DNA of 64,000 nucleotides. Source: an uncultured Pontibacter sp. GTDB lineage: Bacteria; Bacteroidota; Bacteroidia; Cytophagales; Hymenobacteraceae. Positions 1-64,000 of the stretch are shown here, one piece after another. The stretch covers positions 124,001 to 188,000 of the forward strand of contig NZ_CANLZM010000003.1 in NCBI RefSeq assembly GCF_947495565.1, in the 5' to 3' direction. Below the pieces are notes generated by a model that did not search any database, had not been told where the DNA came from, and worked only from the letters and a program-made list of their open reading frames with translations. The stretch's first letter is position 1. Each line of letters opens with the position of its first letter. The translations under genes and the position numbers were made by a program.

Positions 1-634
1 TGCGCGGAAACCACTGCGCCATCTCGTAGAGGTAGTTGTCATCCTCCGGGAAATACTCGTAGCCAGAGCGGCCGCCCAATGTTTTCTGGTTGTTGATGTT
101 ATGTTTCCAGTCGATGCTGAAGGTAATGCTTTGCTTTGGCTTAAGCGGGGAAGGAAGGTCGATACGCATCATGGTGTTGTTGATGGTATACTGCAGCGCC
201 TTGCCGCCACGGTCGGCCACTTTGCTAATCTTAAAGCCGCCGTCAAACTTCTCGCGCGTCATGTACTCCACGGCACGCAGTGGAATCTCTTGTCGCAGCT
301 CCGCCGTCTGTGTCAGGTTGCTCATCGAGTTCGGCTCGAAGATGTTCTGATCCAGCTGCACCCACAGGTAAGAGAGTACGTCTGGCGAGTTGTTGGTGTA
401 GGTAATTGTTTCGGAGCCGGTGATGGCTTGGTTTTCGTCGTCGAGCTCCACTTTTATAGTATAGTCAGCACGCTGCTGCCAGTACTGGTGGCCTGGAGCG
501 CCCGAAGCGGTGCGGTACGTGTTAGGGGTTGGCAGCTCTTGCCCCAGCTGGGCAAACTTGGTATCCTGTGCCAGTGCCGCTAAAGGGCCTGCCACTAAGC
601 TAACCAGAGCCAATCCTGCTAAAATGTTTCTCAT
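1..634 (-). CDS. M1 family metallopeptidase, N-terminal part (runs off the window)
   Basis: The reverse strand reads open from ATG at 634 to the window edge, giving 211 residues. It starts with a signal peptide (MRNILAGLALVSLVAGPLAA) followed by the beta-sandwich N-terminal domain of M1 aminopeptidases, recognised from YWQQRADYTIKVELDD, ITGSETITYTNNSPD and YLWVQLDQN. The zinc site (HEXXH) would lie beyond the edge, so catalysis cannot be checked. Proteins of this kind in Bacteroidota are secreted or periplasmic peptidases. It lies 61 bp downstream of the HupE/UreJ-like gene on the same strand, so the two are probably co-transcribed. Family assignment rests on the N-terminal domain only. Confidence 0.8.
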   Translation of the reverse strand, partial: MRNILAGLALVSLVAGPLAALAQDTKFAQLGQELPTPNTYRTASGAPGHQYWQQRADYTIKVELDDENQAITGSETITYTNNSPDVLSYLWVQLDQNIFEPNSMSNLTQTAELRQEIPLRAVEYMTREKFDGGFKISKVADRGGKALQYTINNTMMRIDLPSPLKPKQSITFSIDWKHNINNQKTLGGRSGYEYFPEDDNYLYEMAQWFPR

Positions 635-695
635 GTGGTTTTAGTTAGGATAGATAAAGTAAGGGTTAAAGTAAAATTTACCTTTCTAGCTTAAG

Positions 696-1289
696 CTAGA
701 AGATGTTGGTTTCTATCATTAGAATTAAGGAAATGCCGGCTGCAGCGCTGGAAAGCACCAGGATCCAATCGCGCTTTTTTGCCCGAAACAGGTTCATTAT
801 CAGGAATCCTACTATCAGAAGTATACTTACGATCAGCAGCTGCCCCAGCTCTATGCCAATATTAAAGGCCAGCAGCTGCTGCCAGATATTACCGTTGCGG
901 CCCAGCATCTGGCGCAGGAAATTGGAGAAGCCCATGCCATGAATCAGGCCAAATAAAATCGCCAACAGGTTGTGCATCGACAGGATAGTTCCCTGCTTGC
1001 TTGCTGCGCCGTTCAGCTTAAAGAAGTTAGTGACGCATGTAAAAAGTATGGTTACCGGTATCAGGAACTCAATCAAGGATGAGTCAAACTTAATGATGTT
1101 GAAGGTGGCAAGTGCCAGTGTAATGCTGTGGCCGATGGTAAAGCTGGTAACCAGTGCAATTGCTTTCTTCCAGTCCTGTAAGGTATAAATGGCGCTCAGG
1201 GCCAGCAGGAACAGCATGTGATCATAGGCTTTAAAATCAAATATGTGATTGAAGCCCAGTTCTATGTAAGTATTGAATACAGATGACAC
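696..1289 (-). CDS. HupE/UreJ-family membrane protein
   Basis: A 197-residue hydrophobic protein with about six membrane segments. The first part carries FNHIFDFKAYDHMLFLLAL, the His/Asp signature of HupE/UreJ_2 proteins (GxxHIxxGxDHxLF-like, here without the first Gly pattern), and a second conserved stretch reads LFGLIHGMGFSNFL. HupE/UreJ proteins are associated with nickel or cobalt handling, but this Bacteroidota branch has no hydrogenase or urease genes nearby, so metal transport is not supported here. The gene precedes the M1 peptidase on the same strand. Function beyond integral membrane protein is unknown. Confidence 0.75.
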   Translation of the reverse strand: MSSVFNTYIELGFNHIFDFKAYDHMLFLLALSAIYTLQDWKKAIALVTSFTIGHSITLALATFNIIKFDSSLIEFLIPVTILFTCVTNFFKLNGAASKQGTILSMHNLLAILFGLIHGMGFSNFLRQMLGRNGNIWQQLLAFNIGIELGQLLIVSILLIVGFLIMNLFRAKKRDWILVLSSAAAGISLILMIETNIF

Positions 1290-1541
1290 TGCGTAAGTAT
1301 ATTAGGATGTAGATATAGCTAAGTTGCAAATTACGCATCTGCGGCTAAACATGCAATGTTCTGACAGGCTTGTGCAGCAGTTGCAGCAGGTATATCGACG
1401 AATAGAGGTATTAGCTCTATAAGTTTAGACGTTTAGTGGCTGCTTTCAGCATGAGCTATGCTTCAAGTTGTTGCCAAGTTTATACTTTAGCTGCTGCTGA
1501 TTTCAGTTTGAACCAAGCTATACTCTCTAACCTTTGTTGAT

Positions 1542-1850
1542 CCACGGCTTTACAACCTGCTTGATTCATCTCTGGCTTTGGTTCCCTCAAGGCCGGGAGG
1601 CCTCGTCTTCCCGCATCGCGCTGGGACCTTTTCCTTTGCTCCTACGTCGCAATGCCTCGCTATCGCTCGTCACCGGAAAAACTCCATAGGCGCTCAACGG
1701 AAAGACTGGGAATTATTTCGATAGCCACCGCTGACGGAGTTTGAACCGAACTCCCTCTCCTGTTTTGGGGGTAGGGGTCCTCGATAAAAGGAGAGGGCTG
1801 GGGTAAGGTAAGAATTCCCCTCCTTGGGCAAGGAGGGGTTAGGGGTGGTT
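1542..1850. repeat. Mosaic intergenic repeat, family A copy 1
   Basis: This fills most of the 776-bp gene-free stretch 1290-2065. Four modules recur at 21707-22080: (1) from CCACGGCTTTACA through GGGAGGCCTCGTC (1542-1609); (2) from GCATCGCGCTG through CGCTGACGGAG (1612-1739); (3) CCCTCTCCTG...AGGAGAGGGCTG, which can fold as a stem-loop (1750-1800); (4) AATTCCCCTCC...AGGGGTGGTT, a second stem-loop (1813-1850). Modules 3 and 4 are in the opposite order in the other copy. No open frame of note. I saw nothing else in 1290-1541 or 1851-2065 apart from AT-rich promoter-like sequence before the lactonase gene. Confidence 0.8.
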
Positions 1851-9375: not shown

Positions 9376-10032
9376 CTACGCGCTGCAAGGCGTGCGGAGG
9401 TCGGCGAAGAGTAGCAGCCAGCGGCCATTGCGGAAACCGAAGTGAAAGCGATAAGCGGTAGCTGTATGCAATACTGTGGCTTGCACCTGCTCCTGCAGCT
9501 GCTGTACTTGTTGGGCCTGTTGCTCGCTTAGGTTGGCGTATTGCCACATAGTTGTGGTCTGAAAACTGGAGGTGCTGAAGGTGTAAAAGCAGCCATCTTC
9601 GGCAAAACCAGTTGCGCCACGGTCCATGTCGGCACAATCAAAAGCTGGAAACGCCTCCCGGTGCTGCAACTCGCATACTTTTACCTCCTGGTTTATACTT
9701 GTAAATGGCCGCTGCTGATAGTTCCGCTGTACCTCCTGTATACTTTTAAAGTGGCTGTAAGCGGGCATTGCGCCGGGTTGCTCTATTAGCCAGATACCTG
9801 ATTGGGCATCTACAAAATCGTTTAGCGCTGCCGTGTCGCCAGCTTGTAGCGCGTTAAAGAACCGGTTAAATTCTTCTGCAAAAGAGGCTGAGTCAGGTGC
9901 TGCTGGCCGGGCCTCTTCCTGTGCGGCCTGAAGGGAATCTACCCGTTGGCTGCCTAACATACCCGGCCTGCTGTCGGGGCCGCAGGAGGTGCACATAACC
10001 AGCACAGCAAGTATAGCAAAAGTAAAACGCAT
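9376..10032 (-). CDS. Hypothetical lipoprotein
   Basis: A 218-residue protein with a clear lipoprotein signal (MRFTFAILAVLVMCTSC, Cys17). The mature part has an acidic, Ala-rich linker, then a mixed alpha/beta region containing FNRFFNALQAGDTAALNDFV, which resembles the start of an NTF2/SnoaL-like or DUF4864-like fold, and FHFGFRNGRWLLLFADLRTP at the end. No catalytic residues are recognised. It stands alone, divergent from the hydrolase gene at 10167. I do not recognise the family with confidence. Confidence 0.55.
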   Translation of the reverse strand: MRFTFAILAVLVMCTSCGPDSRPGMLGSQRVDSLQAAQEEARPAAPDSASFAEEFNRFFNALQAGDTAALNDFVDAQSGIWLIEQPGAMPAYSHFKSIQEVQRNYQQRPFTSINQEVKVCELQHREAFPAFDCADMDRGATGFAEDGCFYTFSTSSFQTTTMWQYANLSEQQAQQVQQLQEQVQATVLHTATAYRFHFGFRNGRWLLLFADLRTPCSA

Positions 10033-10166
10033 AGTAGAAAGTAAGCTTTAAACACAGATACGGCATTGGGTAGCCATGGAGTTATACTTGTGAACTTTGA
10101 ATATGGCGGTTCGTAAAGTTAAGTATACATATTATCAATTACTTATACTGATAACCTACATAAACT

Positions 10167-10850
10167 ATGACGAATTATACTTTTAACGAAAGCATCAGGA
10201 TTGAGCTGCAGGACGCATCGCTTACCGGTGATCTGGCTATTCCGGAGAGTGCAGCGGGCCTCATTGTTTTCTCTCATGGCAGTGGCAGTAGCCGCCTCAG
10301 CAGCCGCAATCGTTTTGTGGCCAAACACCTGCAGCAATCGGGTTTCGCCACACTGCTCTTCGACCTGCTTACCGGGTCGGAGGATAAAGAATACAACAAC
10401 CGTTTTGATATACCTAAGCTAACCCGGCGACTGATCGAGACAACCTACTGGTTGCAGCAAGACCCGCGCACACGCGATCTGAACCTCGCCTTCTTTGGGG
10501 CAAGTACGGGCGCTGCCTCGGCCATAGGAGCCGCCGCTGCCGAAGGCCCTCAAATTATAAAGGCCGTGGTAAGCCGTGGCGGAAGGCCAGACTTAGCTGA
10601 TACCGTGTTGATGGACCTGCAGGTGCCTACGCTGCTGATAGTAGGCGGCAAAGATGAGGCTGTGCTGGAGATGAACATACAGGCGCAGAACCAGATGCAG
10701 TGCATAAAAGATTTAGAGATAGTGCCGGATGCCACCCATTTGTTTGCAGAACCAGGGGCCCTGGAACTGGTAGCCCGCCTTGCCACCGATTGGTTCCGGA
10801 AGTACGTGAAGCCCGAAAAGCAACAGCCCCTGCACCAAAATCGGCCTTAG
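10167..10850 (+). CDS. Dienelactone-hydrolase-like alpha/beta hydrolase
   Basis: A 227-residue cytoplasmic alpha/beta hydrolase. Visible motifs: GLIVFSHGSGSSRLSSRNR (oxyanion loop), nucleophile elbow FFGASTGAAS with Ser in GAST, the acid in LLIVGGKDEAV, and His in PDATHLFAEPGAL. It belongs to the group found fused to, or next to, phosphoribosyltransferases, and here a phosphoribosyltransferase gene follows 142 bp downstream on the same strand. The substrate is unknown. The -7-like AT-rich region before 10167 carries several AAGTATA/TATACTT motifs. Confidence 0.8.
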   Translation: MTNYTFNESIRIELQDASLTGDLAIPESAAGLIVFSHGSGSSRLSSRNRFVAKHLQQSGFATLLFDLLTGSEDKEYNNRFDIPKLTRRLIETTYWLQQDPRTRDLNLAFFGASTGAASAIGAAAAEGPQIIKAVVSRGGRPDLADTVLMDLQVPTLLIVGGKDEAVLEMNIQAQNQMQCIKDLEIVPDATHLFAEPGALELVARLATDWFRKYVKPEKQQPLHQNRP

Positions 10851-10992
10851 CGAAAGTATAAACGAGTTTTAGGATGATCACATGAAATCCAAGCCCTAGA
10901 ACGCACTCAATTTATACTTCTGCGCATCCTCGTACTTATGCAACTGCTGATTCAGAATACTCACCCATACACTTGTAATAAAATGTAAAGCT

Positions 10993-30819: not shown

Positions 30820-31232
30820 TGTTCAGAGGGTTAAGTATGCCGAATTGTATTATGTGTATTTATAGTTGTTTTATACTAGAACGCGAGCAGCAGATAATTG
30901 TTAAAAACTTGGGTGAATACGTAGCCAGGCAGAATGGTGAATTTTTAAGGATCCTGATGTTTTGTTTTTTATGGGTTTTGTCTTATGGGAGCCTATATTG
31001 TAAACGTTGAAAGTATGATTTTATACTTTAGTTAAACTGATCTTAAAGAACTTCTGCTCACTAAGACGTACTTTTAGAGGAGTGGCATCAAAACTCCATC
31101 CCTGCCCCTGCGGAAGGAGAGTTCCTGCTTGATTGGAGCACCCTATTTAATGATGGACTTAAAAGGAGGTGAACCTGAAAGAAGTAAGCTATTGCGGCTG
31201 CGCTTTAATTAAAGTATAGCTGAGCAGAACTG

Positions 31233-33951: not shown

Positions 33952-34257
33952 AGTACAGCAAAATCTGTTTAAAGAACCGAATATAACAATTTCTTGTGAT
34001 AAAATTAAAAATAGAAGAAACGGTATGTTGTAGTGAAGTATAACCTGTGTTTATACCTGTAGCGGAAGCGCACAGGTGTGGCGCAGGCAAGTGTATCGAA
34101 AACGTACACATCTAGGCTGTGTGCTGTTTGCAATTATCTGTTTTATAGGATTTTATGTTTTTGGCATCTTAATTTCTTGCAGCCTTGAGGTACATCAGAG
34201 GAAAACATTAAAAATTTTTCGCAGCTATACTTTTACATCGCTACAAAGCCTACAACT
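33952..34257 (+). promoter_or_regulatory. Divergent regulatory region of the two-component pair and the permease
   Basis: 306 bp between the divergent regulator and permease genes, with no coding frame of note. I looked for a -24/-12 sigma-54 promoter facing the permease. TTGGCAT near 34160 followed by TTGCA is the best pairing, but its spacing is four bases too long, so I do not call it. Confidence 0.4.
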
Positions 34258-36624
34258 ATGATTAAGAACTATTTTAAAATGGCCTACCGCAACCTGATGC
34301 GGCACAAGGTCTTCTCGCTCATCAACATATCAGGCCTGGCACTGGGCATGACCTGCAGCATTCTTATCCTGCTGTGGGTGCAGGACGAGCTGAGTGTCAA
34401 CCGTTTTCATGCAGACGTTGACAACCTGTACCGAGTGATGGAAGTGCAGAGTTACCCGGGTGCTGATGACCTGACAGTGGATGCTACGCCGGGTCCTTTG
34501 GCCGAGGCGCTGGAACGGGATGTGCCGGAGGTGGTTCATGCCGTTCGCTCCACTACCTGGGACTGGAAACAGCTTTTCGCCTATAACGACAAAGTACTGA
34601 AGGTAAACGGAAGGTATACTGACCCGGAGTTCTTTGAGGTATTCACATTCCCGCTTTTACATGGCGATACTAAAAATGTGCTGGCTGAACCTAATTCTGT
34701 GGTGATCTCAGAAACAGTGGCGAACCAGTTTTTCAACTCTCCCGAGGAGGCAATGGGTAAGCTGTTCAAGGTTAATAACACCAAAAGCTACAAGGTAACT
34801 GGCGTGATGCAGGATGTGCCGAAGAACTCCACTATGCAGTTCGATTATGTGATGCCGGTGGGTGACTGGATCAACAATCCCGGAGGTGAATGGCTAAAGG
34901 AGTGGGGAAATAACGCCTTGCGCACCTTCCTGCAGCTGCAGCCAGGCACCGATATTGCCGCCTTCAACGAGAAGGTAAAGCCAATGATACAGAAGTATCA
35001 CCCGGGCTCGAACACTGAAGTATTTGTGCAGCCTGTTAGCGAGATGTATTTGTTTGGCGATTTTACGGGAAGCAAAGCCACGGGCGGAAACGTAGAGAAC
35101 GTGCGCCTCTTCGCGGTGGTAGCTGTGTTCATCCTGATCATTGCCTGCATCAACTTTATGAACCTGGCCACTGCCCGCTCGGCCAAACGCGCCAAAGAGG
35201 TGGGGGTGCGCAAAGCCATCGGGGCCAACAAATCAGCCCTTATCCAACAGTTTATGGTGGAATCGGTGCTGGTGGCATTCCTAGCGCTGTTCATTGCGGT
35301 AAACCTGATTGGCATCCTGCTGCCGCACTTCAACGACTTAACCGGGAAGTTTATAGAGCTCAACCTCTCTGATCCGTCGCTGCTCCTGATGCTGTTGGGG
35401 GTGGCTATACTTACAGGGGTTGTCTCTGGTAGCTACCCAGCCTTTTTCCTGTCCTCTTTCAATCCGGCGGTGGTGCTGAAAGGCACAGCAAAACTCAGCA
35501 AGAGCGTATCGGTGTTCCGTAAAGGCTTGGTGGTATTCCAGTTTATACTTTCTGCCTTGCTGATCATTAGTACCCTGGTGGTATACCTGCAACTGCACTT
35601 CATCCGCACAAAGAACATCGGCCTGAACAGAGAAAACGTGGTGCTGCTGCCACTGGAGGGAGAGCTCCTTGACCGTTACGATGTGATGAAGGAAGAGATG
35701 TTGAAGGTGCCGGGAGTAACAGGTCTTACGGCTGCCAACCAGAACCCGCTGATGGTCGGTAACTCTACGGGAGACATAGCGTGGGAGGGGAAGGACCCCA
35801 ATGCGGACATTCTGTTTAGCATCCTGAAAGTAGACTATGATTTCCTGGAGACCATGGGAGTGCAGATGAAAGAGGGCAGAAGCTTCTCGAAAGAGTTTGG
35901 CGCAGAAGAATCCAAAGTGATCATCAATGAGGAAGCTGCCCGGTTAATGCAGATGAAGGAGCCTGTAGGGCAGTGGCTTGGCCGTGGAGATGAACGCGCT
36001 GCAATTATCGGTGTGGTGAAAGACTTCAAAACCACCTCTATGCACGAGACGATGAAGCCGTTGGTGATGATGCTGGACATGAATGACGCCAATACGGTAT
36101 TTGTCCGCGTTACTTCCGGGCAAACAGCAGAGGTATTGTCTGCCATGGAAGGCATTGTGAAAAAGCACAACCCAGCCTTTCCGTTCGAATATCACTTCCT
36201 GGATGAGGACTTTGAGCGGATGTATAAAACAGAAGCCATTATGGGCCAGCTGACGAAGTACTTCGCGGGTATAGCCATCTTTATCTCCTGCCTTGGCTTG
36301 TTTGGTTTGGCCCTGTTCACGGCGGAGCAGCGCACCAAGGAGATCGGTATCCGCAAAGTGCTGGGCGCCTCCGTCTCCAGCATCGTGTACATGCTAAGCA
36401 AGAACTTCCTGAAACTGGTGCTGATCGCTAACCTGATCGCACTGCCGCTGGGTTGGTACTTTATGAGCGGCTGGCTGAACAACTATGCCGACCGGATGGA
36501 GCTGAGTTGGTGGATCTTTACCTTCGCTTTCATCTCAACCTTCCTTATTGCCATGCTTACCCTGAGCTTCCATGCCATTAAAACTGCCGTGGCCAACCCC
36601 GTAACATCGTTACGCTCTGAATAA
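34258..36624 (+). CDS. ABC transporter permease, MacB/FtsX type
   Basis: A 788-residue permease with the usual two MacB-type periplasmic core domains and FtsX regions: MAYRNLMRHKVFSLINISG with the first membrane helix (about 20-42), a large periplasmic domain to about 280, three or more helices (about 285-450, containing NFMNLATARSAKRAKEVGVR and KAIGANKSALIQQF), a second periplasmic domain, and the final helices with EQRTKEIGIRKVLGASVSSI. No ATP-binding partner is encoded next to it, so the ATPase must be elsewhere. It is divergent from an NtrC/NtrY pair, a common arrangement for these permeases in Bacteroidota and a hint at envelope-stress or antimicrobial export. Confidence 0.92.
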   Translation: MIKNYFKMAYRNLMRHKVFSLINISGLALGMTCSILILLWVQDELSVNRFHADVDNLYRVMEVQSYPGADDLTVDATPGPLAEALERDVPEVVHAVRSTTWDWKQLFAYNDKVLKVNGRYTDPEFFEVFTFPLLHGDTKNVLAEPNSVVISETVANQFFNSPEEAMGKLFKVNNTKSYKVTGVMQDVPKNSTMQFDYVMPVGDWINNPGGEWLKEWGNNALRTFLQLQPGTDIAAFNEKVKPMIQKYHPGSNTEVFVQPVSEMYLFGDFTGSKATGGNVENVRLFAVVAVFILIIACINFMNLATARSAKRAKEVGVRKAIGANKSALIQQFMVESVLVAFLALFIAVNLIGILLPHFNDLTGKFIELNLSDPSLLLMLLGVAILTGVVSGSYPAFFLSSFNPAVVLKGTAKLSKSVSVFRKGLVVFQFILSALLIISTLVVYLQLHFIRTKNIGLNRENVVLLPLEGELLDRYDVMKEEMLKVPGVTGLTAANQNPLMVGNSTGDIAWEGKDPNADILFSILKVDYDFLETMGVQMKEGRSFSKEFGAEESKVIINEEAARLMQMKEPVGQWLGRGDERAAIIGVVKDFKTTSMHETMKPLVMMLDMNDANTVFVRVTSGQTAEVLSAMEGIVKKHNPAFPFEYHFLDEDFERMYKTEAIMGQLTKYFAGIAIFISCLGLFGLALFTAEQRTKEIGIRKVLGASVSSIVYMLSKNFLKLVLIANLIALPLGWYFMSGWLNNYADRMELSWWIFTFAFISTFLIAMLTLSFHAIKTAVANPVTSLRSE

Positions 36625-36675: not shown

Positions 36676-37806
36676 ATGAAAAAATCATTCTCATTACTAC
36701 TTGTGTGGTTAGTGCTGATAGCGCCGGCCTTCGCCCAAAATGTTTACAAGGGCTTCCCTGTTATAAAGGCAACTTCCAGCATGGCAGATTACAAGATTGG
36801 CAAGGAACTGGTAAAAGGGAACTGGAACATTTCGCCACGGCTTTCACCAGATGTGCTGAAAGTGCCGGTGCACAAGGCCAAAGAAAACTTTACCTTCTAC
36901 ACCAACACCGACTCGATCAGCTTTAAAGTACAGGCTGGCAAGTCGTACCGCTTCTACGTAAGCCTGAACGACACAGCTTATGCCCTGACAGAGTTACAGG
37001 GCTACGGCTTTGAGGCGGTTCAGTTTAATAAAGACCAGCGGGTGCCAGCTTATACCTTGATGTATGAGCAGAACCAAAACAACGCTTACCTACAGGAGCT
37101 ACGCAGCAAGTATAACCTGGATGCCATTGTGGCAGGTGCTGCCAATGATACTGAGAAGGCGCTGCGTATGGTAAACTGGGTGCACAAGCAGTGGCAGCAT
37201 AACGGAATGAACGAGCCAAGCCAGCCAGACGCGCTGACCATACTTGCTGAGGCCAAAGAAGGCAAGCAGTTCCGCTGCGTAGAGTATGGCATCGTAACAA
37301 CAGCCGCTTTAAATGCCATTGGCTTGCCAGCCCGCACCATGGGTCTGAAGATGAAGGAAGTGGAAACAATGGAGTTCGGGGCCGGCCACGTGCTGCTAGA
37401 AGTATACTTGCCGGACATGCAGAAGTGGGTAATGCTGGACGGGCAGTACGACGTGATGCCGGTGCTGAATAATGTGCCGCTTAGTGCTGTGGAGTTTCAG
37501 CAGGCCATCGCCAGGAACTACAGCAAACTGGAGATCAGAAGCCTGTCTGGAGCCAACAAAGCGCAGTACGTAAACTGGATATACCCATACCTGTACTACT
37601 TTGATGTGAAGTTTGATAACCGTGAGGGGGTGGCCTTCCAGAGAGAAACCGTGGACGGCAAGAGCTCGCTGATGCTGGTGCCGGTAGGGGCTAAAGTGCC
37701 TGAAGTGTTCCAGCGCAAGTATAAATTGGACAGGTTTAAGTATACCAGCTCGCTCGCAGACCTGTACCAGGCGCCAGTGCTGCCTGCCACCACTGCTTCT
37801 AAGTAA
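36676..37806 (+). CDS. Secreted transglutaminase-like protein with an unnamed N-terminal domain
   Basis: A 376-residue protein: signal peptide (ending AFA-QN), the unnamed domain shared with the protein at 24279 (about 21-117), and a transglutaminase-like cysteine-peptidase domain (about 150-270). The triad is visible: Cys201 in KQFRCVEYGIV, His238 in GAGHVLLEVYL and Asp255 in VMLDGQYD. Such domains cleave or cross-link peptides in the periplasm, and the substrate is unknown. It lies 51 bp after the permease gene on the same strand and may be co-transcribed with it. The strong hairpin at 37830 terminates it. Confidence 0.85.
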   Translation: MKKSFSLLLVWLVLIAPAFAQNVYKGFPVIKATSSMADYKIGKELVKGNWNISPRLSPDVLKVPVHKAKENFTFYTNTDSISFKVQAGKSYRFYVSLNDTAYALTELQGYGFEAVQFNKDQRVPAYTLMYEQNQNNAYLQELRSKYNLDAIVAGAANDTEKALRMVNWVHKQWQHNGMNEPSQPDALTILAEAKEGKQFRCVEYGIVTTAALNAIGLPARTMGLKMKEVETMEFGAGHVLLEVYLPDMQKWVMLDGQYDVMPVLNNVPLSAVEFQQAIARNYSKLEIRSLSGANKAQYVNWIYPYLYYFDVKFDNREGVAFQRETVDGKSSLMLVPVGAKVPEVFQRKYKLDRFKYTSSLADLYQAPVLPATTASK

Positions 37807-43165: not shown

Positions 43166-44812
43166 GTGAGTAATAAGAATACAAAGAGAAGCAACGTGTC
43201 GAATTTTAATCGCTCTCAATTAGTAAAGGAACTGGAGCGGGAGGAAAATGTGTGGGATGTTATTGTAATTGGAGGCGGGGCAACAGGGTTGGGTGTGGCT
43301 GTGGATGCGGCATCTAGGGGTTTCAAGACTGTGCTGCTGGAGCAGAGTGATTTTGCAAAAGGCACATCCAGCAGAAGCACAAAGCTGGTGCACGGAGGTG
43401 TGCGTTACCTGGCACAGGGCGATGTAAGCCTTGTTTATGAAGCGTTGCATGAAAGAGGCTTGTTGATAAAAAATGCGCCTCACCTGGTAAGCGAGCAGCC
43501 ATTTATTATCCCGAACTACAGCTGGTGGAACAAAATGTTTTACGGTTTAGGGTTAAAGGTGTATGACTGGATGGCGGGCAGGTATAGGCTGCAGAAAACC
43601 TCACTTCTGGATAAGGAAACAGTTGCCCGCCTTTTGCCAAACGTGCGGAAGAAAGGTCTGAAAGGTGGTGTAGAATATTTCGACGGACAGTTTGATGATG
43701 CAAGGTTGGCTGTAAATATAGCTCAGACATGTGTAGAGCAAGGCGGAGTGGTGCTGAACTATATGAAAGTGGATGGGTTGGTGAAAAACCACCAGGGAGA
43801 GGTGGCAGGAGTTTTGGCGCTTGATGTAGAGACTGGCCGCAAGTATAAATTACATGCCAAGGCGGTTGTAAACGCAACTGGCGTTTTTGTAAACAATGTA
43901 CTGCAAATGGATGCCCCTAGCCAGCAGCCGCTAGTGCGGCCAAGCCAAGGGGTGCACGTAGTGGTAAACCGCTCTTTCCTGGACGGGGAGAATGCTCTGA
44001 TGCTACCTAAAACCCCTGACGGACGCGTGCTGTTTGCTGTGCCATGGCACGGACACGTGCTGTTAGGAACAACAGATACACCACTTGAGAACCCTAGCTT
44101 AGAACCAACAGCGCTAGAGGCTGAAATAGACTTTATACTTCAAACGGCCGGGCAGTACCTGGAGCGCAAGCCAACCAGAAAAGATGTGTTAAGCGTATTT
44201 GCCGGGCTACGCCCGCTGGCGGCTCCTCTCAAGAATGCGAGCAGTACCAAAGAAATCTCTCGGAGCCATAAACTGCTGGTTGCCAAATCAGGCTTAATTA
44301 CCATAACAGGCGGTAAATGGACCACTTACCGAAAAATGGCAGAAGATACTATAGACAAAGCTATTGCTGTGGCAGGCTTGCCCAGGCGCTCCTGTGTAAC
44401 GGCAAACCTGCAGATTCACGGTGCTATAAATAAAAAAAACAATATATTCGGGTCTTTAAGCATCTACGGGGCTGATGCCGAGGAAATAAACCTGCTCATT
44501 GCAGACAACCCGGAATTAGGTGTAAAACTGCACAAAGAATATCCTTACATGTATGCAGAAGTAGTTTGGGCAGTGCGACACGAGATGGCCAGGACAGTAG
44601 AAGACGTGCTGGCTAGAAGGCTGCGCGTGCTGTTCCTGAATGCCAAAGCGGCGATAGAAATGGCGCCTCAGGTAGCTGCGCTTATGGCTGCCGAGTTAGG
44701 CACTGACGAAGAATGGCAGCAAAAGCAAGTCGATGTCTTTACAGCGCTCGCCAACAACTATCTCCTGGAGCCTCTCAAAAAGATGGCGCCTGCAGCAGTT
44801 AGCCAAGATTAA
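43166..44812 (+). CDS. glpD: Glycerol-3-phosphate dehydrogenase, aerobic type
   Basis: A 548-residue FAD enzyme that oxidises sn-glycerol 3-phosphate to dihydroxyacetone phosphate and passes electrons to quinones at the inner membrane. FAD site: [21 protein letters not shown]; then [38 protein letters not shown] and [15 protein letters not shown], all diagnostic. Translation starts at GTG 43166, as no ATG lies before the FAD motif. First gene of the glpD-glpK-glpF run (17 and 28 bp gaps), probably induced by glycerol or G3P through the sites upstream. Confidence 0.95.
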
Positions 44813-44829: not shown

Positions 44830-46314
44830 ATGGAGAAATTTATACTTGCTTTTGATCAGGGTACTACCAGTTCCAGAGCCATTATATTTAATCATGCTGG
44901 TGCTATTGTGTCTGTTGCCCAGAAAGAGTTTACTCAACTATACCCTCAGCCAGGTTGGGTAGAGCACAACCCTAATGAAATATGGTCTACACAGGTAGGA
45001 GTAGCAGCAGAATCCATCTTGAAAGCAGGGCTTCAGGCAAAGGATATTCAGGCCATCGGAATCACCAACCAAAGAGAAACTACTGTTGTTTGGGATAGGC
45101 ATACAGGCGAGGTTGTACACAACGCCATTGTGTGGCAAGACCGACGTACTGCTGCATACTGCGATCAGCTGAAAGACCAGGGGCTGGAGCCGCTTATCAG
45201 AGAGAAAACAGGGCTGGTGCTCGATGCTTATTTCTCTGCCACCAAAATAAAATGGATTCTCGACAATGTGCCTGGAGCCAGAGAGAAAGCCGAATGCGGT
45301 AGTTTAATCTTCGGAACAATAGACACTTGGCTTATCTGGAAGATGACCGGCGGCAACAAGCATGTTACGGATGTTACCAACGCCTCCCGCACCTTGCTTT
45401 ACAACATCCATACCCTTGCATGGGACGAAGACCTGCTGCACCTTTTTGGCATCCCGGCCAGCATGCTCCCTCAGGTAAAAGCATCCAGCGAGGTAGTCGG
45501 CCATACATCCAATTCTCTTTTCTCCACTCAAATACCCATCGCAGGCATTGCCGGCGACCAACAGGCTGCCTTGTTCGGACAAATGTGCACTAAACCGGGT
45601 ATGGTGAAAAACACCTATGGTACAGGGTGTTTTATGCTGATGAACATCGGAGAGAAACCAATAATATCTGAGCACAGGCTGGTAACAACCGTTGCCTGGC
45701 AAATACAGGGCCAGGTGCATTACGCGCTGGAAGGAAGCATTTTTATAGCCGGCGCAGTAGTACAGTGGCTACGGGACGGGTTAGGTGTAATAGCAACTTC
45801 TGAGGAAGTAGAGCATTTGGCCAAAAAGGTAGCCGGAAGTGATGGCGTATACTTGGTGCCGGCATTTGTGGGCATGGGAGCGCCGCACTGGGACCAGCAT
45901 GCACGCGGCACCATGGTGGGCATAACCAGAGGGACAACCTCTGCGCATATAGCCAGGGCAGCATTAGAAAGTATAGCTTACCAGACCTACGAGGTGTTAA
46001 AAGCCATGGAGGCAGACGCCGGAATCACTATCAAAGAATTGCGGGCTGATGGCGGGGCTACCGAAAACGACTTGCTCATGCAGTTTCAAGCAGACATACT
46101 TGGAGCCCGGGTGATAAAACCAGAGGTAACAGAGGTTACAGCCATTGGTGCTGCTTATCTGGCAGGGTTGGCAACAGGCTATTGGGGCAGTGTTGAGGAG
46201 ATACAGCAGCAGTGGACTGTCAGTAAAAGTTTTCAGCCAAGTGCAAGCCTGTCTTCAGATGATCTTCTAAAAGGTTGGCACAAGGCCGTGAAGGCGGCAA
46301 AAGCCTGGGTGTAA
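44830..46314 (+). CDS. glpK: Glycerol kinase
   Basis: A 494-residue FGGY kinase that phosphorylates glycerol to G3P. The N-terminal phosphate loop [16 protein letters not shown], the [20 protein letters not shown] and [10 protein letters not shown] motifs, and the C-terminal FGGY signature [19 protein letters not shown] are all present. Length is normal. It follows glpD by 17 bp, and glpF follows. Confidence 0.97.
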
Positions 46315-54957: not shown

Positions 54958-56379
54958 ATGAAAAGAAGAGAATTTATTGCTCGTGTCAGCCTCTTGGCCG
55001 GAGGGCTTTGGGTAGGAGGCCGCTCAGCATTTGGCCTGGCTGCTACCTCTACTAAAAAAATAAAAGGCACTGTTACGGCGCAGGGTAAAAAGCTGGGGCA
55101 GGTTGTCGTGTCGGATGGGTATAGCGTGGTGCAAACCGACAGAAAAGGGCGCTATGCATTGCCACATAACGAGCAGGCGCAGTTCGTGTTTGTATCGGTG
55201 CCGGCAGGGTACGAACTACCTAACGAGAACGGCATTGCCCGCCATTACCAGGTGCTTAAAGCAGGGCAGGAGAAGTATGATTTTGAACTGAAACCACTGG
55301 CGCAGGACGATAACCAGCATAAGTTTATCATCTGGGCCGATCCGCAGGTGAGAAACAAGCAGGACGTGGAGCAAATGATGACCCAGTCGGTGCCTGACGT
55401 GCAGCAACTGTTGCAGTCGTTTGGGGCCGGAGCGTTGGTGCACGGTATTACCGTAGGCGATATTGTCTGGGACAAGCACGAGCTTTTTAACGATTACAAC
55501 CAGGCAGTTGCGGCCACAGGCATTCCATACTTTCAGGTGCTGGGCAACCACGACATGGATTATAACAAAGGCGGCGATGATGCCTCTGATGATACCTTTC
55601 AGGCAACCTATGGCCCAACCTATTACTCGTTTAACCGCGGCAAAGCCCACTATGTGGTGCTGGATGATGTCCGCTATTTAGGCACAGACAGAAACTATGA
55701 CGGGCATCTGCCGGAGGTGCAGCTGGCGTGGTTGGCAAAAGACCTGGAGCAGGTGCCAAAAGACCACTTGGTTATACTTTGCCTGCACATACCTGTGCAC
55801 AATGGCGTGAAGAACAGCCAGGAGTTATATGCTTTACTGAAAGACCGCCAGGTACACATCATGTCGGGACACACGCATTATAACCGCAATGTTATCACAG
55901 ATAATGTGTACGAGCACGTGCACGGCACACTTTGCGGCGCCTGGTGGACCGGCCCGATCTGCGGAGACGGTGCGCCGCGCGGCTACGGCGTGTATGAGGT
56001 AAACGGCAATGAACTTAGCTGGCAGTACAAATCCACGGGGTATGACCTGAAGCACCAGATTAGCCTGCACCTCGACGAAACCAGCGGGCAGAAGAACCTG
56101 GTTGCCAATGTATGGAACTGGGACCCCGCCTGGAAAGTAGAGTGGTGGGCCGATGGCAAAGCCATGGGTGAACTGAGCAACTTTAAAGGCTTAGACCCAC
56201 AAGCCAGCGCACTATACCTCGGCGATAAACTGCCACAGCCACGCGCTTTTGCAGAGCCTGTAGAAACAAACCACTTATTTAAGGTGGCGCTGCCTGCTGG
56301 AGCAAAACACGTTAAAGTGCAGGCTACCGATCGCTTCGGGCGCAAGTATGAGCAAGCCGCTGATGTAAGGATTTCATAA
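54958..56379 (+). CDS. Tat-exported calcineurin-like phosphoesterase
   Basis: A 473-residue metallophosphoesterase. The start MKRREFIARVSLLAGGLW is a twin-arginine signal, implying folding with metals before export to the periplasm. An N-terminal MetallophosN-like beta domain (about 35-120) precedes the catalytic core with IWADPQ, TVGDIVWDK, VLGNHDMDYN, LCLHIPVH and MSGHTHYNRN, the full two-metal site, then a MetallophosC-like domain. It lies 207 bp after the DUF5689 gene and 24 bp before glpQ. In this context it may cleave phosphomonoesters or diesters from imported lipid headgroups. Confidence 0.92.
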   Translation: MKRREFIARVSLLAGGLWVGGRSAFGLAATSTKKIKGTVTAQGKKLGQVVVSDGYSVVQTDRKGRYALPHNEQAQFVFVSVPAGYELPNENGIARHYQVLKAGQEKYDFELKPLAQDDNQHKFIIWADPQVRNKQDVEQMMTQSVPDVQQLLQSFGAGALVHGITVGDIVWDKHELFNDYNQAVAATGIPYFQVLGNHDMDYNKGGDDASDDTFQATYGPTYYSFNRGKAHYVVLDDVRYLGTDRNYDGHLPEVQLAWLAKDLEQVPKDHLVILCLHIPVHNGVKNSQELYALLKDRQVHIMSGHTHYNRNVITDNVYEHVHGTLCGAWWTGPICGDGAPRGYGVYEVNGNELSWQYKSTGYDLKHQISLHLDETSGQKNLVANVWNWDPAWKVEWWADGKAMGELSNFKGLDPQASALYLGDKLPQPRAFAEPVETNHLFKVALPAGAKHVKVQATDRFGRKYEQAADVRIS

Positions 56380-56403: not shown

Positions 56404-57315
56404 ATGAAGAGATTTTTAAGTATAGCTTTTGCTGCCCTTATACTTGCCAGCGGCTGCAAGAGTAGCGAACGAACAGCGCAGCAGAATATGCCGCTGCCAG
56501 CTTTTGATACGGAAGGCCATCGCGGTGCCCGCGGGCTGATGCCGGAGAACACAGTGCCGGCCATGCTCCGAGCCATAGACCTGGGCGTGACAACTGTTGA
56601 AATGGATTGCCACATAACACAGGATAATCAGGTGGTTGTGACGCATGATCCATACATCAACCATTTATATGCACGGACACCAGACGGCAGCGACTTTACC
56701 AAGGAAGAGAGCGAGCAATACGCCGTCTATAAAATGAAGTATGAGCAAGTGCGCCAGTTTGATGTTGGTTCTAAACCGTATGGTCTTTATCCGCGGCAGC
56801 ATAAAATGAAGGCGCAAATCCCTTTGCTGGCAGATCTCATCGATTCTGTGCAGACGCACCTGAAGGTGAATAACCTGCCACAGGTTTTTTATAACATTGA
56901 GATCAAATCAAAAGAAGGTAAAGATAACGAGCTTCACCCGGAGCCAGCAAGGTTTACAGAGCTGGTGGTAGAGGTGGTGGAGCAGAAAGGAATTACGCCA
57001 TGGGTAATTATTCAGTCGTTTGATAAGCGTGCTCTGCAGGCGCTGCACCGCCAATATCCGCACATCAGGGCTTCGCTGCTGGTTAGCAACCAAGATTCTT
57101 TTGAGGAGAATATACAGCAGCTAGGTTTTACGCCAGCTATTTACAGCCCCAATGCCAAGCTCGTAACCGAAGAACTGGTGAAGAAATGCCACGACCGCCA
57201 GATGAAAATAATCCCCTGGACGGTAAACTCCGCAGAAGAAATAGCCAAACTTAAAGCATTAGGCGTGGACGGCATCATATCGGACTACCCTGACCTGTTT
57301 GCGCAAAAGCTTTAG
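56404..57315 (+). CDS. glpQ: Glycerophosphodiester phosphodiesterase lipoprotein
   Basis: I use ATG at 56404 rather than the TTG one codon before. The 304-residue (303 with this start) protein has lipobox LASGC (Cys18) and a GDPD TIM barrel: DTEGHRGARGLMPENT with the general acid-base His39 and Glu48, TTVEMDCHITQDNQVVVTHD with metal ligands, YNIEIKSKEG, VIIQSFDKRALQAL and IPWTVNSAEEIAKLKALGVD. It splits glycerophosphodiesters to G3P and an alcohol in the periplasm, feeding GlpT. Closely packed with its neighbours. Confidence 0.95.
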   Translation: MKRFLSIAFAALILASGCKSSERTAQQNMPLPAFDTEGHRGARGLMPENTVPAMLRAIDLGVTTVEMDCHITQDNQVVVTHDPYINHLYARTPDGSDFTKEESEQYAVYKMKYEQVRQFDVGSKPYGLYPRQHKMKAQIPLLADLIDSVQTHLKVNNLPQVFYNIEIKSKEGKDNELHPEPARFTELVVEVVEQKGITPWVIIQSFDKRALQALHRQYPHIRASLLVSNQDSFEENIQQLGFTPAIYSPNAKLVTEELVKKCHDRQMKIIPWTVNSAEEIAKLKALGVDGIISDYPDLFAQKL

Positions 57316-58060: not shown

Positions 58061-58066
58061 TTTAGG

Positions 58067-58120
58067 AAGTATAAAGTATAAAAGGCTGCACCATCTGCAA
58101 GCCTTTTATACTTTATACTT
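58067..58120. terminator. Bidirectional terminator made of AAGTATA/TATACTT arms
   Basis: A 24-bp stem with one bulge (58067-58090 with 58096-58120) between the convergent SGNH and DeoR genes. Each arm holds two tandem AAGTATA or TATACTT motifs plus AAAAGGC/GCCTTTT. Confidence 0.85.
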
Positions 58121-58134
58121 TAAAAGCAAAGGTG

Positions 58135-59142: not shown

Positions 59143-60720
59143 ATGAATTTTTCTACACTCGACTTTATTGTATTTATAGGCTACTGCCTGCTCATTATTG
59201 TTTTCGGTATCTGGATATCCCGGGAGAAAAAAGGGCATGTTAAAAACTCCACCGACTACTTTTTGGCCAGTAAATCACTGCCATGGTGGGCAATCGGGGC
59301 TTCGCTTATCGCGTCTAATATTTCGGCCGAGCAATTTATCGGTATGTCAGGCTCCGGCTTTGCCATAGGTTTGGGCATTGCCAGCTACGAGTTTATGGCG
59401 GCAGCCACTCTTATACTTGTGGCAAAGTTTTTCCTCCCGATCTATATTAAGGAAGGGATTTTTACTATGCCGCAGTTCCTGAAGCTGCGTTACGATGACC
59501 GTATCCGCACCAGCCTGGCCATCTTCTGGATCATGCTGTACATCTTCGTGAACCTGACAACAGTACTTTACCTTTCGGCGCTGGCATTGAGCGTAGTGTT
59601 AGGCATTAGTACCACTGCTGCAATTGTTGGTTTGGCTGTGGTGGCGGTGTCCTACTCCATCTACGGCGGTCTAAAAGCCGTGGCCTGGACGGACGTAATT
59701 CAGGTGGTGTTTCTGATACTTGGCGGCTTGGTAACTACATACTTGGCCCTGGATGCTGTGAGTGGGGGAGAAGGCCCTGTGAAAGGTATGGGTATGCTGT
59801 TTGCACAAGCCCCGGAGAAGTTCGATATGATTCTATCCGAAGAGAATCCGTTTTACAAAGACCTGCCAGGTATGACAGTGTTGTTTGGCGGTATGTGGAT
59901 AGCTAACATAAGCTACTGGGGTTTTAACCAGTACATTGTGCAGCGTGCATTGGCCGCTAAAAGTGTGAAAGAAGTGCAGTGGGGCTTGGTTTTCGCCGCT
60001 TTCCTGAAGCTGTTGATTCCGTTGGTAGTGGTAATTCCGGGTATTGCGGCTTTTGCGTTAAATGCTGAGATCAGCCGTTACGATGAAGCATACCCTTGGC
60101 TGCTTGGCAACCTGGTGCCTACCGGCTTAAAAGGCTTGGCTTTTGCTGCGCTTATTGCCGCTGCCCTGTCATCCCTGAGCTCTATGATGAACTCCACGGC
60201 TACTATCTTCACCATGGATATTTATAAGTCGCACCTGAAGAAGGATGCCACGGAGAACCAAATGGTAATGACAGGCCGCCTTGTAAGCCTTATAGCGATA
60301 ATTATTGCGGTGCTGGTGGCAGAGCCATTGCTTGGTGGAGAGGAGCAGATCTTCCAGTTTATCCAAAAATACACAGGTTATGTTAGCCCGGGCATTGTGG
60401 TGCTGTTCCTGTTCGGCCTGTTCTGGAAACGGGCTACTTCCAATGCTGCTTTGGCAACTGCCATTGCGTCTGTTCCTTTCAGTATCATCATCGACGTGAT
60501 GTTCCCAACCATGCCGTTCCTGGACCAGATGGGGATTGTATTCCTGCTGCTCTCTGCGCTGATGGTAGGCTACTCGCTGTTCGAGAACAACGTAAGGGGC
60601 AAGTATCCGGAAAACACCGTGCACATTGATAAAGGTCTCTTTAAGACGGATAGCATCTTTAATGTCACAGCTACCGCTATCATCTTTGTGTTGGCAGCTG
60701 TTTACATTATTTTCTGGTAG
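59143..60720 (+). CDS. Sodium:solute symporter (SSS family)
   Basis: A 525-residue, about 14-helix sodium symporter of the vSGLT type: STDYFLASKSLPWWAIGASL, IASNISAEQFIGMSGSG, PIYIKEGIFTMPQFLKLRYD, AIVGLAVVAVSYSIYGGLKA (SSS signature region), SYWGFNQYIVQRALAAKS and ALIAAALSSLSSMMNSTATI. vSGLT-like proteins carry sugars or polyols such as inositol. It is divergent from the DeoR gene, so it likely imports a sugar or alcohol released in this locus, for instance the headgroup of phosphatidylinositol or a glycosylglycerol. The substrate is inference. Confidence 0.92.
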   Translation: MNFSTLDFIVFIGYCLLIIVFGIWISREKKGHVKNSTDYFLASKSLPWWAIGASLIASNISAEQFIGMSGSGFAIGLGIASYEFMAAATLILVAKFFLPIYIKEGIFTMPQFLKLRYDDRIRTSLAIFWIMLYIFVNLTTVLYLSALALSVVLGISTTAAIVGLAVVAVSYSIYGGLKAVAWTDVIQVVFLILGGLVTTYLALDAVSGGEGPVKGMGMLFAQAPEKFDMILSEENPFYKDLPGMTVLFGGMWIANISYWGFNQYIVQRALAAKSVKEVQWGLVFAAFLKLLIPLVVVIPGIAAFALNAEISRYDEAYPWLLGNLVPTGLKGLAFAALIAAALSSLSSMMNSTATIFTMDIYKSHLKKDATENQMVMTGRLVSLIAIIIAVLVAEPLLGGEEQIFQFIQKYTGYVSPGIVVLFLFGLFWKRATSNAALATAIASVPFSIIIDVMFPTMPFLDQMGIVFLLLSALMVGYSLFENNVRGKYPENTVHIDKGLFKTDSIFNVTATAIIFVLAAVYIIFW

Positions 60721-62557: not shown

Positions 62558-62598
62558 CAGCAGGCGTACTTTTAACGGCGCTTACCGTATAAGCGCGT

Positions 62599-63096
62599 AT
62601 GGCAACACACGATACGCACTACACACGCACCCCACGTTCCGAAAAGCTTAAATGGGTAGACCATATCGCCCATCTAATGGACAACCAGTTTCGGTTGCCC
62701 GGTACAAGTTTCCGTTTTGGTTTAGATCCTATTCTTGGGTTGCTGCCCTTTGCCGGCGATCTTGCCTCTTTCGGTGTGTCTGCAGTATTAATCCTGACAA
62801 TGGCACGCCACGGGGCCAGCGGCAAACTGGTTGCCCTGATGATGCTAAATATAGGCCTGGACGTACTCATTGGCAGCATTCCCATACTTGGCAACATCTT
62901 CGACTTTGCCTTTAAGGCCAACGAGCGCAATGTGCGCCTGCTGCGCCGCCACTACGAGGAGGGCAAATACCAAGGCAGCGGCAAAGGTATTATGGCTGGT
63001 GTGTTAATAGGGCTTGTGCTGATGCTGGTATTCCTGATATGGGCGCTGTGGCAAATTGGCGAGTGGCTGTGGCAGCTGATAGCCTCATACTTCTAA
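62599..63096 (+). CDS. DUF4112 membrane protein
   Basis: A 165-residue protein with DUF4112: LKWVDHIAHLMDNQFRLPGT, FRFGLDPILGLLPFAGDLAS, MMLNIGLDVLIGSIPILGNI and FDFAFKANERNVRLL. These give a helical hairpin region and one or two membrane helices, with another near the C-terminus (VLIGLVLMLVFLIWALWQIG). The function is unknown. Its last 12 bases overlap the end of the convergent uvsE gene. Confidence 0.92.
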   Translation: MATHDTHYTRTPRSEKLKWVDHIAHLMDNQFRLPGTSFRFGLDPILGLLPFAGDLASFGVSAVLILTMARHGASGKLVALMMLNIGLDVLIGSIPILGNIFDFAFKANERNVRLLRRHYEEGKYQGSGKGIMAGVLIGLVLMLVFLIWALWQIGEWLWQLIASYF

Positions 63097-63984
63097 ACGG
63101 CCAAGGCTTTTGGCTACATCCCGGGCTTTCAGGGCACTTTCCTGCTTGTCTTTTATCTCCAGCATGATGTCCATATCGAGGCCCTCGGTTTCGGCCAGAA
63201 AATCGTGGAAGAGCTGTTCTTGTATACTTTGCACGTGCTTGCCGCGGCGCTCGTTGGGTGCCTGAGAGCTATAGTCCATCATCAGGATGCCGTCTCTGTC
63301 TGGTTGCCAGGTGGTAGCGGCCATTTCTACGGCCTCGCGCATGGGTTCTCCGTTGTTCACGCACTCGTGGTGCAGGTTATCGAAAATAATAGGCATTCCA
63401 GTTAGTTCGTGCAGCTGCAGGCAATCTTGCAAAGTATAGGTGCGGTCATCGTTCTCTACGCAAAGCCGGGTTTTTACGGCATCAGGCAACATGGTATGGT
63501 ATACTTCTGCAAAGCGTTGTATGGCTGAGGCCTTATCACCGTAGGCGCCACCGCCGTGTATCTGTAGTTTGGCGGTAGTGTCCAGCTCCATCAAATCAAG
63601 TACGGTGCCCTGGTAGACTAACTCGGCAATGCTGTTGTGCACTGTTTTCTCGTTTGGCGAGTTGAGTACCACAAACTGATCCGGGTGCATGGAGATGCGC
63701 ATATTATTATTTTTGATGTAGCTGCCCAATCTCCGGAAAGTCATTTTGAAGTGCTCCTGCCAGTTATACTTGTTTATCTCGTGCGAGGCAAATGGCACCA
63801 GGTCAGAGGTGAGCCTGAAAAACAGCAGCCCGTGCTGTACATTGTACTCCAGTATGCGGCGCAGGCAGGCCAAGTTTTGCTCTACGGTCTCTATCAGGCG
63901 CTCCTCAGAATACGAAGCAAGTCTAAATGTGCGGGAGGAGCTGCAGTCGAGCTCGTTATTGATGCAGGGGTATCCTATTTTCAT
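63085..63984 (-). CDS. uvsE: UV-damage endonuclease (UvdE type)
   Basis: A 299-residue TIM-barrel metal enzyme that nicks DNA 5' of UV photoproducts for alternative excision repair. Motifs: MKIGYPCINNELDC start, FRLTSDLVPFASH, RISMHPDQFVVLNSPNEKTV, LQIHGGGAYGDKASAIQRF, RLCVENDDRTYTLQD (metal ligands Glu/Asp), PIIFDNLHHECVN and ILMMDYSSQ. Length is normal. The end overlaps the DUF4112 gene by 12 bp on the opposite strand. The start, ATG at 63984, is 16 bp from the window edge. Confidence 0.94.
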   Translation of the reverse strand: MKIGYPCINNELDCSSSRTFRLASYSEERLIETVEQNLACLRRILEYNVQHGLLFFRLTSDLVPFASHEINKYNWQEHFKMTFRRLGSYIKNNNMRISMHPDQFVVLNSPNEKTVHNSIAELVYQGTVLDLMELDTTAKLQIHGGGAYGDKASAIQRFAEVYHTMLPDAVKTRLCVENDDRTYTLQDCLQLHELTGMPIIFDNLHHECVNNGEPMREAVEMAATTWQPDRDGILMMDYSSQAPNERRGKHVQSIQEQLFHDFLAETEGLDMDIMLEIKDKQESALKARDVAKSLGRLEV

Positions 63985-64000
63985 AGTTTCAGGTAGTGAT

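Follow-up and report, generated by a model that had tools for sequence, protein, structure and literature searches.

Two pilus-competent families are known to carry iterated self tags that come in dialects, and in cyanobacteria such tags exist as highly iterated palindromes (HIPs). The uptake signal sequences of the Pasteurellaceae have lineage variants, and their pilus-based uptake has a demonstrated bias. In the Neisseriaceae, the DNA uptake sequence (DUS), of 10–12 letters, is present in thousands of copies, its dialects follow the phylogeny and combine a constant core with variable letters, the word builds dyads and inverted repeats, and some family members lack an abundant word (Frye et al. 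2013, PMC3630211). Most of the cyanobacterial words (HIP1 and alternate HIPs) are palindromes rich in GC for which a matching methyltransferase exists; they occur at 1,000–2,000 per Mb, and in some species other words take their place (Elhai 2015, PMC4390886). In the phylum Bacteroidota, Riemerella anatipestifer is transformed with the help of ComEC, DprA, ComF, RecA, and proteins unlike the well-known machinery, including an essential one with the domain DUF5689 (PMC8459023). Here, we describe a short word, AAGTATA (TATACTT on the other strand), that is hugely over-represented in a stretch of 64,000 nucleotides from an uncultured Pontibacter sp. (NZ_CANLZM010000003.1, positions 124,001 to 188,000; hereafter the window) and in many of its congeners. 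Like the uptake signal sequences of the Pasteurellaceae, it is short and has many copies, although the sequence is another one (PMC7811141, PMC1939737). It shares with the neisserial DUS the features listed above other than length and differs from it in being 8 letters long and TA-rich and in belonging to a different phylum. With the HIPs it shares a comparable density and differing words in related genomes.

The window contains 122 exact sites, 59 as AAGTATA (+) and 63 as TATACTT (−), and the source genome (G000, 4.52 Mb) contains 8,095 copies compared with 436 for the reversed word, which served as a control. The density is approximately 1,800 per Mb and the enrichment approximately 14- to 17-fold. 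The over-representation noticed in the sequence-only reading is therefore confirmed and is larger than thought; its local counts (8 in 9601–11000 and 13 in 31201–34260) were exact, and the excess continues outside the window, with 820 sites in a 464-kb sample of G000 composed of the window and 400 kb from two other contigs. The copies are unevenly distributed: successive 10-kb bins of the window hold 21, 24, 20, 25, 11, and 15, and its last 4 kb hold 6. Markov models of orders 0 to 5 predicted 9.8, 8.2, 13.4, 26.4, 60.0, and 103.0 sites on both strands of the window and 67.7, 56.0, 89.2, 163.6, 391.4, and 683.5 sites in the 464-kb sample. The order-5 model, proposed beforehand as a possible refutation, nearly predicts the count because its training hexamers AAGTAT and AGTATA are already inflated by the motif; we rejected it as a circular null. 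Independent controls, namely the reversed word and congeners without the dialect (e.g., 786 copies in the 5.8 Mb of G028), give no such prediction. The excess is real, acts at the DNA level, and is genus-wide in scope, though absent in some species, and it comes in dialects. Within the open-licence PMC literature, we found no paper with AAGTATA as a whole word.

The word has sharp limits. In the 464-kb sample, AAGTATA occurred 820 times versus 60 expected from an order-2 background in which AAGTAT was masked, AAGTATG occurred 336 times versus 59, and the remaining single-letter variants of AAGTATA were present at 0.8- to 2.8-fold (lowest neighbour ratio, 0.83). The base 3′ of the word is A in 57, G in 20, C in 15, and T in 6 percent of the cases, the base 5′ is A in 43 percent, and on either side the flanks are nearly uninformative past the first one or two bases. 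As the sequence-only reading had stated, the word lies on both strands, in genes and between them (561 coding and 254 intergenic sites by simple longest-ORF gene calls in G000), at densities of 1.40/kb and 4.06/kb, respectively. Codon usage and protein content are ruled out as its cause by synonymous shuffling, over which all six phases of the coding sites were raised 2.9- to 21-fold. The phase that reads ATA-CTT (Ile-Leu) had 128 copies versus 9.2 expected after such shuffling, and the seven Ile-Leu examples given beforehand were all found within 3 bases of their positions and in frame. The codons ATA and CTT, which had been thought rare, account for 2,176 and 2,046 of 133,624 codons and so are not very rare.

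Between genes, the density was 5.75/kb in convergent, 3.98/kb in tandem, and 3.34/kb in divergent gaps. Dyads in the order AAGTATA-to-TATACTT versus the opposite order numbered 7 versus 2 in convergent, 3 versus 4 in divergent, and 7 versus 7 in tandem gaps, all of which are small numbers. The inverted pair of double sites in the window (58067–58120) forms a strong terminator-like hairpin of −34.3 kcal/mol when folded as RNA (58056–58130). The palindrome AAGTATACTT, made of two overlapping sites, occurs 213 times in G000 versus once for its reversed control.

AAGTATAR is one dialect of the motif A-NN-TATA-R, in which TATA is constant and NN is variable. We compared 50 Pontibacter genomes including G000, using 20 kb around clpB in the 49 others (and a second 20 kb for seven of them) and the window for G000. 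The dialects were called by ranking k-mers without preset words and by counting A-NN-TATA-R, in samples that are small (20–64 kb per genome). AAGTATAR (NN = AG) is the main word in 21 of the 50 genomes (G000, G008, G023, G043, G049, G052, G055, G058, G060, G062, G064, G066, G067, G070, G074, G075, G076, G077, G079, G084, and G092), AGGTATAR (GG) in 12 (G038, G046, G061, G063, G068, G073, G078, G082, G083, G089, G091, and G094), and AACTATAR (AC) in four (G065, G072, G080, and G088). G018 and G033 have an even mixture of the AG and AC words. ATATATAR is the probable main word of G002 (45 versus 0.6 in 40 kb), although the register of this near self-similar word is less certain. Little or no word was present in ten genomes (G013, G028, G069, G071, G081, G085, G086, G087, G090, and G093); in all of these but G028, G069, and G085, one or more such words are weakly enriched (13 copies at most). 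Minor second words included AGGTATAR in G000 (14 versus 3.6) and AACTATAR in G043, G058, G079, and G084 (5 to 15 copies). Whole-genome counts of AAGTATA, which range from 0.8 to 38 times the reversed control, agree with these calls, giving ratios of 8.8–38 in the 21 AG genomes, 2.4–2.8 in the 12 GG genomes, 4.3–4.5 in the four AC genomes, and 12 and 18 in the two mixed ones. The sequence-only reading could not see that its word is one of several dialects, and the dialect series is new here.

In a survey of 60 genomes of the family (15 from the genus, including G000, and 45 from five other genera), more than 23 copies of AAGTATACTT were found in members of the genus only, and not in all of them. 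Among 291 genomes of the order, ARSTATAR was clearly above the control in this genus alone, in four of its six sampled members (G000, G008, G018, and G023), which answers the comparison with related genera suggested beforehand for a word of this form, the survey being blind to dialects of other form. G018 had 16,572 copies versus 1,046 for the control; G002 (1.2-fold) and G013 (2.0-fold) were not clear. The highest ratio seen outside the genus was approximately 2.4, in a 1.2-Mb genome (G130).

The dialects are largely congruent with the phylogeny. In an unrooted tree of 4 to 10 clpB neighbours per genome from 49 of the 50 genomes (rooting failed, and the tree was read without support values; G081 and three outgroup loci, with fewer than four of the ten genes, were omitted), the 12 AGGTATAR species stand together, as do the eight AC-bearing species. 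In the latter clade, the share of AC is graded, being minor in G043 and G058, half in G018 and G033, and dominant in G065, G072, G080, and G088, and these graded AG/AC mixtures look like an ongoing switch. A tree of clpB alone, which suggested two origins of AACTATAR, was rejected as unreliable, with two outgroup loci falling inside the genus. The clpB of G065 (L141, contig C11) was probably exchanged between species of different dialect, because it is nearest to that of G067 (0.894, versus 0.852 for G088 and 0.851 for G080), while its neighbour genes are nearer to those of G088 and G080 (0.728 and 0.675, versus 0.659 for G067).

Site turnover was followed in G067 and G079, the closest same-dialect pair by clpB, with 93.6 percent identity across 126 kb. 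In total, 256 of 303 aligned sites were retained. Retention was 149/178 for coding sites versus 617/964 for 103 pooled anagrams of the same composition, 101/118 versus 443/608 for intergenic sites, and 6/7 versus 37/48 at gene edges. We estimate that sites are lost at approximately 0.4 times the rate seen for the comparison words; approximately 0.15 to 0.25 would be predicted if a weak directional bias produced an excess of 10- to 20-fold, so that the agreement is qualitative. Relative to the mean of the anagrams, counts of the main word in four regions of 200 kb each were higher by a factor of 9.3 to 18.2 within genes and of 16.1 to 32.2 in intergenic DNA. Since the word is better retained than words of the same composition, mutation pressure alone is a less likely cause than a bias in fixation or repair.

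Across dialects, conversion in place was rejected as the main route of switching: of the 114 AAGTATA sites of G067 that could be aligned, only 6 read AACTATA in G065, and 3 contain an indel. Conversely, among 150 AACTATA sites of G065 aligned without gaps, 120 differ from G067 at two to five letters and four at six letters, some of which is expected from ordinary divergence (77.7 percent identity). As most are at least two changes away from the G067 word, the new dialect has largely been written afresh. AACTATA is common to G065 and G080 at 56 of 110 aligned places, and AAGTATA of G067 is kept in G080 at 13 of 58, a pattern as expected if G065 and G080 took their AC word from one origin.

The word also marks proteins through dipeptides that match the dialect and are raised in AG and AC genomes. 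This comparison used the sampled loci of each dialect. In AG genomes (302,071 residues) versus motif-poor ones (80,463), KY ranked 3rd among 302 dipeptides, SI 11th, IL 17th, and YT 37th, and VY was not raised (272nd). In AC genomes versus motif-poor congeners, NY ranked 4th, TI 6th, IV 20th, and YS 29th. GG genomes gave a poor fit, with YT 26th but RY 99th and GI 220th. The ranking is noisy, as the unrelated pairs SQ and DQ were also high.

We tentatively read AAGTATAR as the local dialect of an iterated self-DNA tag, A-NN-TATA-R, that may act like a DNA uptake sequence. As in DUS systems, there are thousands of copies in and between genes, in both orientations, and in dialects that share a core and are congruent with phylogeny. 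Among the roles suggested in the sequence-only reading, an uptake-type signal is the best fit to the dialects and the two orientations. We do not claim membership in the DUS class because the test for pilus machinery was negative and the uptake role is one that we infer. A protein that reads the tag would favour tag-bearing segments in uptake, recombination, or keeping, and the tag would accumulate through a weak directional, drive-like bias; were the specificity of this reader to change, a new dialect would arise and the former one would decay. Natural transformation would be its most likely site, with the tag marking self DNA as DUS do in the Neisseriaceae, and the reader would need to be independent of type IV pili.

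The distribution on mobile DNA bears on this reading from both sides. In Neisseriaceae, an atypical DUS distribution serves to find mobile elements (PMC7371117). Two presumed islands, labelled by reading the translations, are scarcely enriched, which counts in favour of the uptake reading. The AT-rich stretch at 159–188 kb of contig C2 of G000, with integrase-like and defence-like ORFs, has 19 sites versus 8.6 expected (order 1), and the last 50 kb fetched from G079, of mixed composition and with recombinase-like and restriction-like ORFs, has 13 versus 8.4. By comparison, the first 150 kb of G079 have 372 versus 11.9, and the remainder of the 464-kb G000 sample (without 126–188 kb, 151–159 kb standing outside all three groups) has 784 versus 47. 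One ORF in the C2 island is presumably DndC-like.

Several observations weigh against the uptake reading. The prophage-like stretch at 126–151 kb of C2 is itself enriched (14 versus 1.3), though at a low density (0.56/kb), an enrichment not expected of a tag that serves uptake only. The density in G000 is approximately twice that of the neisserial DUS (about 1,900 copies). The motif's lead in retention was also smaller against an earlier, unfiltered set of 40 anagrams, which were better kept (716/972) than the 103 filtered ones and still less well than the motif. The 50 genomes gave no convincing PilB/PilT-type ATPase: PF00437 matched weakly in all 50, with three just over the cut-off, and the listed matches are short, spanning 38 to 66 of the 370 positions in the profile; ComP and the pilins themselves were not searched for. 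ComEC is present in all 50 genomes (a single internal stop interrupts it in each of the motif-bearing genomes G046 and G075), equally in motif-poor species, and has no explanatory power by itself. No obvious receptor candidate was seen in the comEC neighbourhood of 20 of the 50 genomes, and DUF5689, found in 22 of the 50, has no relation to the motif.

In contrast to the Neisseriaceae, our searches gave neither a convincing pilus ATPase nor a receptor. The missing pili leave room for uptake because Riemerella transforms with ComEC, DprA, ComF, RecA, and dissimilar proteins; that report describes no type IV pilus part, so pilus-free uptake is possible in the phylum, and it does not mention an uptake sequence (PMC8459023). 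Pontibacter resembles Riemerella in ComEC and differs in the inconsistent presence of DUF5689, the other Riemerella proteins, apart from ComEC, not having been searched for. It is possible, though doubtful, that Bacteroidota own a pilus-independent, sequence-specific recognition of self DNA that switches dialect within a genus.

Some neighbouring features were recorded in these searches. In the prophage-like stretch, which is followed by the AT-rich island (together L018–L021), the terminase is approximately 33 percent identical to its best phage matches, and no relative of it was found among viral contigs. A scan of viral sequences for motif pairs gave at most 5.9-fold enrichment in the 80 loci listed of at least 120 stretches and was uninformative. 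In the window, a DUF5689 protein (53431–54750) has a SusD protein and a SusC-like ORF as neighbours. A three-gene operon beside clpB, which we take to be YceI-like (L130:5908–8460 and equivalents; 19 of 50 genomes, patchy), has a middle protein 76–100 percent identical to that of G067 and was rejected as a candidate reader, since it does not follow the motif.

A HIP-like origin is unlikely. Under it, the words would be, or be part of, a methyltransferase target and would accumulate via methylation-linked repair or another methylation-dependent function, which has been proposed for HIP1 and the alternate HIPs. The density in G000 lies within the HIP range, and HIPs are likewise exchanged for other words in some species (PMC4390886). 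AAGTATAR, AACTATAR, and AGGTATAR are nonetheless asymmetric and AT-rich, and only 426 of the 8,095 sites in G000 lie in palindromes. None of the four methyltransferase families searched in the 50 genomes tracks the motif (HsdM-type and C5 enzymes were not searched). PF01555 matched in 31 genomes and not in 19, including the motif-rich G049, G062, G066, G067, G070, G072, and G080; PF07669 had some match in 47, with strong ones scattered; PF20473 matched in 40, 35 of them over the cut-off, in a patchy manner; and PF02086 matched in only 13.

The word could also be bound by an abundant protein that organises the chromosome, or by another DNA-binding protein acting genome-wide, with selection on its density and not on its position. 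The high, orientation-neutral density, the intergenic excess, and the turnover of positions while density remains high would suit such a site. The spacing is irregular, however: both short and very long gaps are over-frequent (coefficient of variation, 1.30), and 13 gaps exceed 3.2 kb versus 2.8 expected, partly due to islands. Together with the ten species that have little or no word, this clustering makes such a role quite unlikely.

A Chi-type signal, by which the word would modulate a recombination nuclease and protect or recombine self DNA, appears improbable. It would account for a short, sharp, over-represented word, and recent islands could stay unenriched. The strands, however, are balanced without consistent polarity, with 249/240, 291/293, 200/185, and 338/312 sites in the four 200-kb regions; in G000, the split flips its sign among 50-kb blocks (205/167 and 155/171 in two 200-kb stretches). 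The strand skew proposed as a check, and with it a Chi-like role with replication polarity, is thus unsupported by these counts, for which the replichores are unmapped. Switching and loss within one genus would also be costly for a conserved recombination signal.

Equally improbable is a functionless word produced by neutral, motif-directed mutation pressure from a context-dependent mutator or repair enzyme. Such pressure would account for all frames, both strands, and the dipeptide bias. It leaves unexplained why losses are slower than those of words of the same composition, short of a lower mutability of the word itself. Nor is any word from which it could arise in one step strongly depleted, as the lowest neighbour ratio above indicates, and the multi-letter differences between G065 and G067, in part ordinary divergence, also count against it. 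An artefact of composition, codon usage, or a single repeated element, for which only the circular order-5 count could speak, is practically negligible given the reversed word, the anagrams, the synonymous shuffling, the congeners, and flanks nearly devoid of information.

The tag family may extend beyond Pontibacter. Among 71 of the 80 Bacteroidota loci obtained by the clpB search (those of at least 10 kb), a locus of Rhabdobacter roseus (L060, NZ_JACHGF010000006.1, 22.6 kb) carries a dispersed word, ARGTACCY, on both strands at approximately 3.7 per kb. AAGTACC occurs 57 times versus 2.4 expected, and AGGTACC 41 times strand-wise versus 2.4, corresponding to 26 distinct places, of which 15 form the palindrome AGGTACCT and are counted twice. 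A or C is preferred immediately 5′ of the word. The ARGTA shared with AAGTATA and AGGTATA, together with the A/C preference before it, is suggestive only. In Spirosoma terrae (L075), the palindrome CTACGTAG occupies six places (12 strand-wise versus 0.3) and TACGTA is present 52 times strand-wise versus 8.9, possibly as another iterated word. A repeat in L068 was discarded as an iterated word, as it is mostly a tandem array (around 3791–3993) of an approximately 16-base unit with AGGTTCA.

The sites and composite features of the window are compiled in Table 1. At 39258–42606 of the window, two ORFs of 310 and 342 amino acids, seemingly short at one end, may be interrupted genes of a xylose-type cluster; we take them to be a sugar transporter and a xylulokinase-like protein.

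Table 1. AAGTATA/TATACTT sites of the window and the features that they form
Feature	Position	Strand	Constituent sites or context
AAGTATA, start positions	819, 1295, 2684, 3687, 3832, 4556, 4865, 5113, 10009, 10121, 10854, 11050, 11205, 11606, 11672, 11775, 11991, 12930, 13264, 14351, 15745, 18495, 18641, 21319, 22194, 22342, 23539, 24151, 25160, 25385, 25396, 26057, 26161, 31212, 31237, 32463, 32538, 32809, 33418, 33496, 33688, 34036, 37108, 37400, 37717, 37738, 38684, 39664, 42761, 43841, 45969, 46333, 56387, 56418, 57329, 58067, 58074, 60726, 63432	+	
TATACTT, start positions	822, 1481, 1880, 2002, 4653, 5154, 7129, 7408, 8100, 8800, 9124, 9694, 9739, 10083, 10176, 10913, 13398, 15089, 16961, 18145, 19185, 19663, 21297, 21684, 22249, 23413, 23640, 24088, 24102, 26100, 28542, 29124, 30634, 31022, 31374, 31632, 32073, 34226, 35406, 35544, 37403, 38873, 43114, 44134, 44841, 45848, 47275, 47850, 48075, 52998, 53163, 53757, 54366, 55773, 56439, 58107, 58114, 58564, 59412, 61419, 63223, 63500, 63765	−	
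Palindrome AAGTATACTT	819..828		overlapping sites 819 (+) and 822 (−)
Palindrome AAGTATACTT	37400..37409		overlapping sites 37400 (+) and 37403 (−)
Cluster of 8 sites	9694..10919		9694−, 9739−, 10009+, 10083−, 10121+, 10176−, 10854+, 10913−
Cluster of 13 sites	31212..34232		31212+, 31237+, 31374−, 31632−, 32073−, 32463+, 32538+, 32809+, 33418+, 33496+, 33688+, 34036+, 34226−
Inverted pair of double sites	58067..58120		58067+, 58074+, 58107−, 58114−; between convergent ORFs 57356–58060 (+) and 58135–58944 (−)
ATA-CTT site	35406..35412	−	in ORF 34258–36624
ATA-CTT site	35544..35550	−	in ORF 34258–36624
ATA-CTT site	44134..44140	−	in ORF 43166–44812
ATA-CTT site	44841..44847	−	in ORF 44830–46314
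ATA-CTT site	55773..55779	−	in ORF 54958–56379
ATA-CTT site	56439..56445	−	in ORF 56401–57315
ATA-CTT site	59412..59418	−	in ORF 59143–60720

Pontibacter adds a case unrelated to the known ones, in which three clear words and a probable fourth within one genus, together with genomes of mixed dialect, form a natural series on the causes of word accumulation, for which uptake bias, methylation, and recombination are the candidates. If the uptake reading is true, it would indicate a species barrier to gene transfer and a new class of receptor in Bacteroidota.

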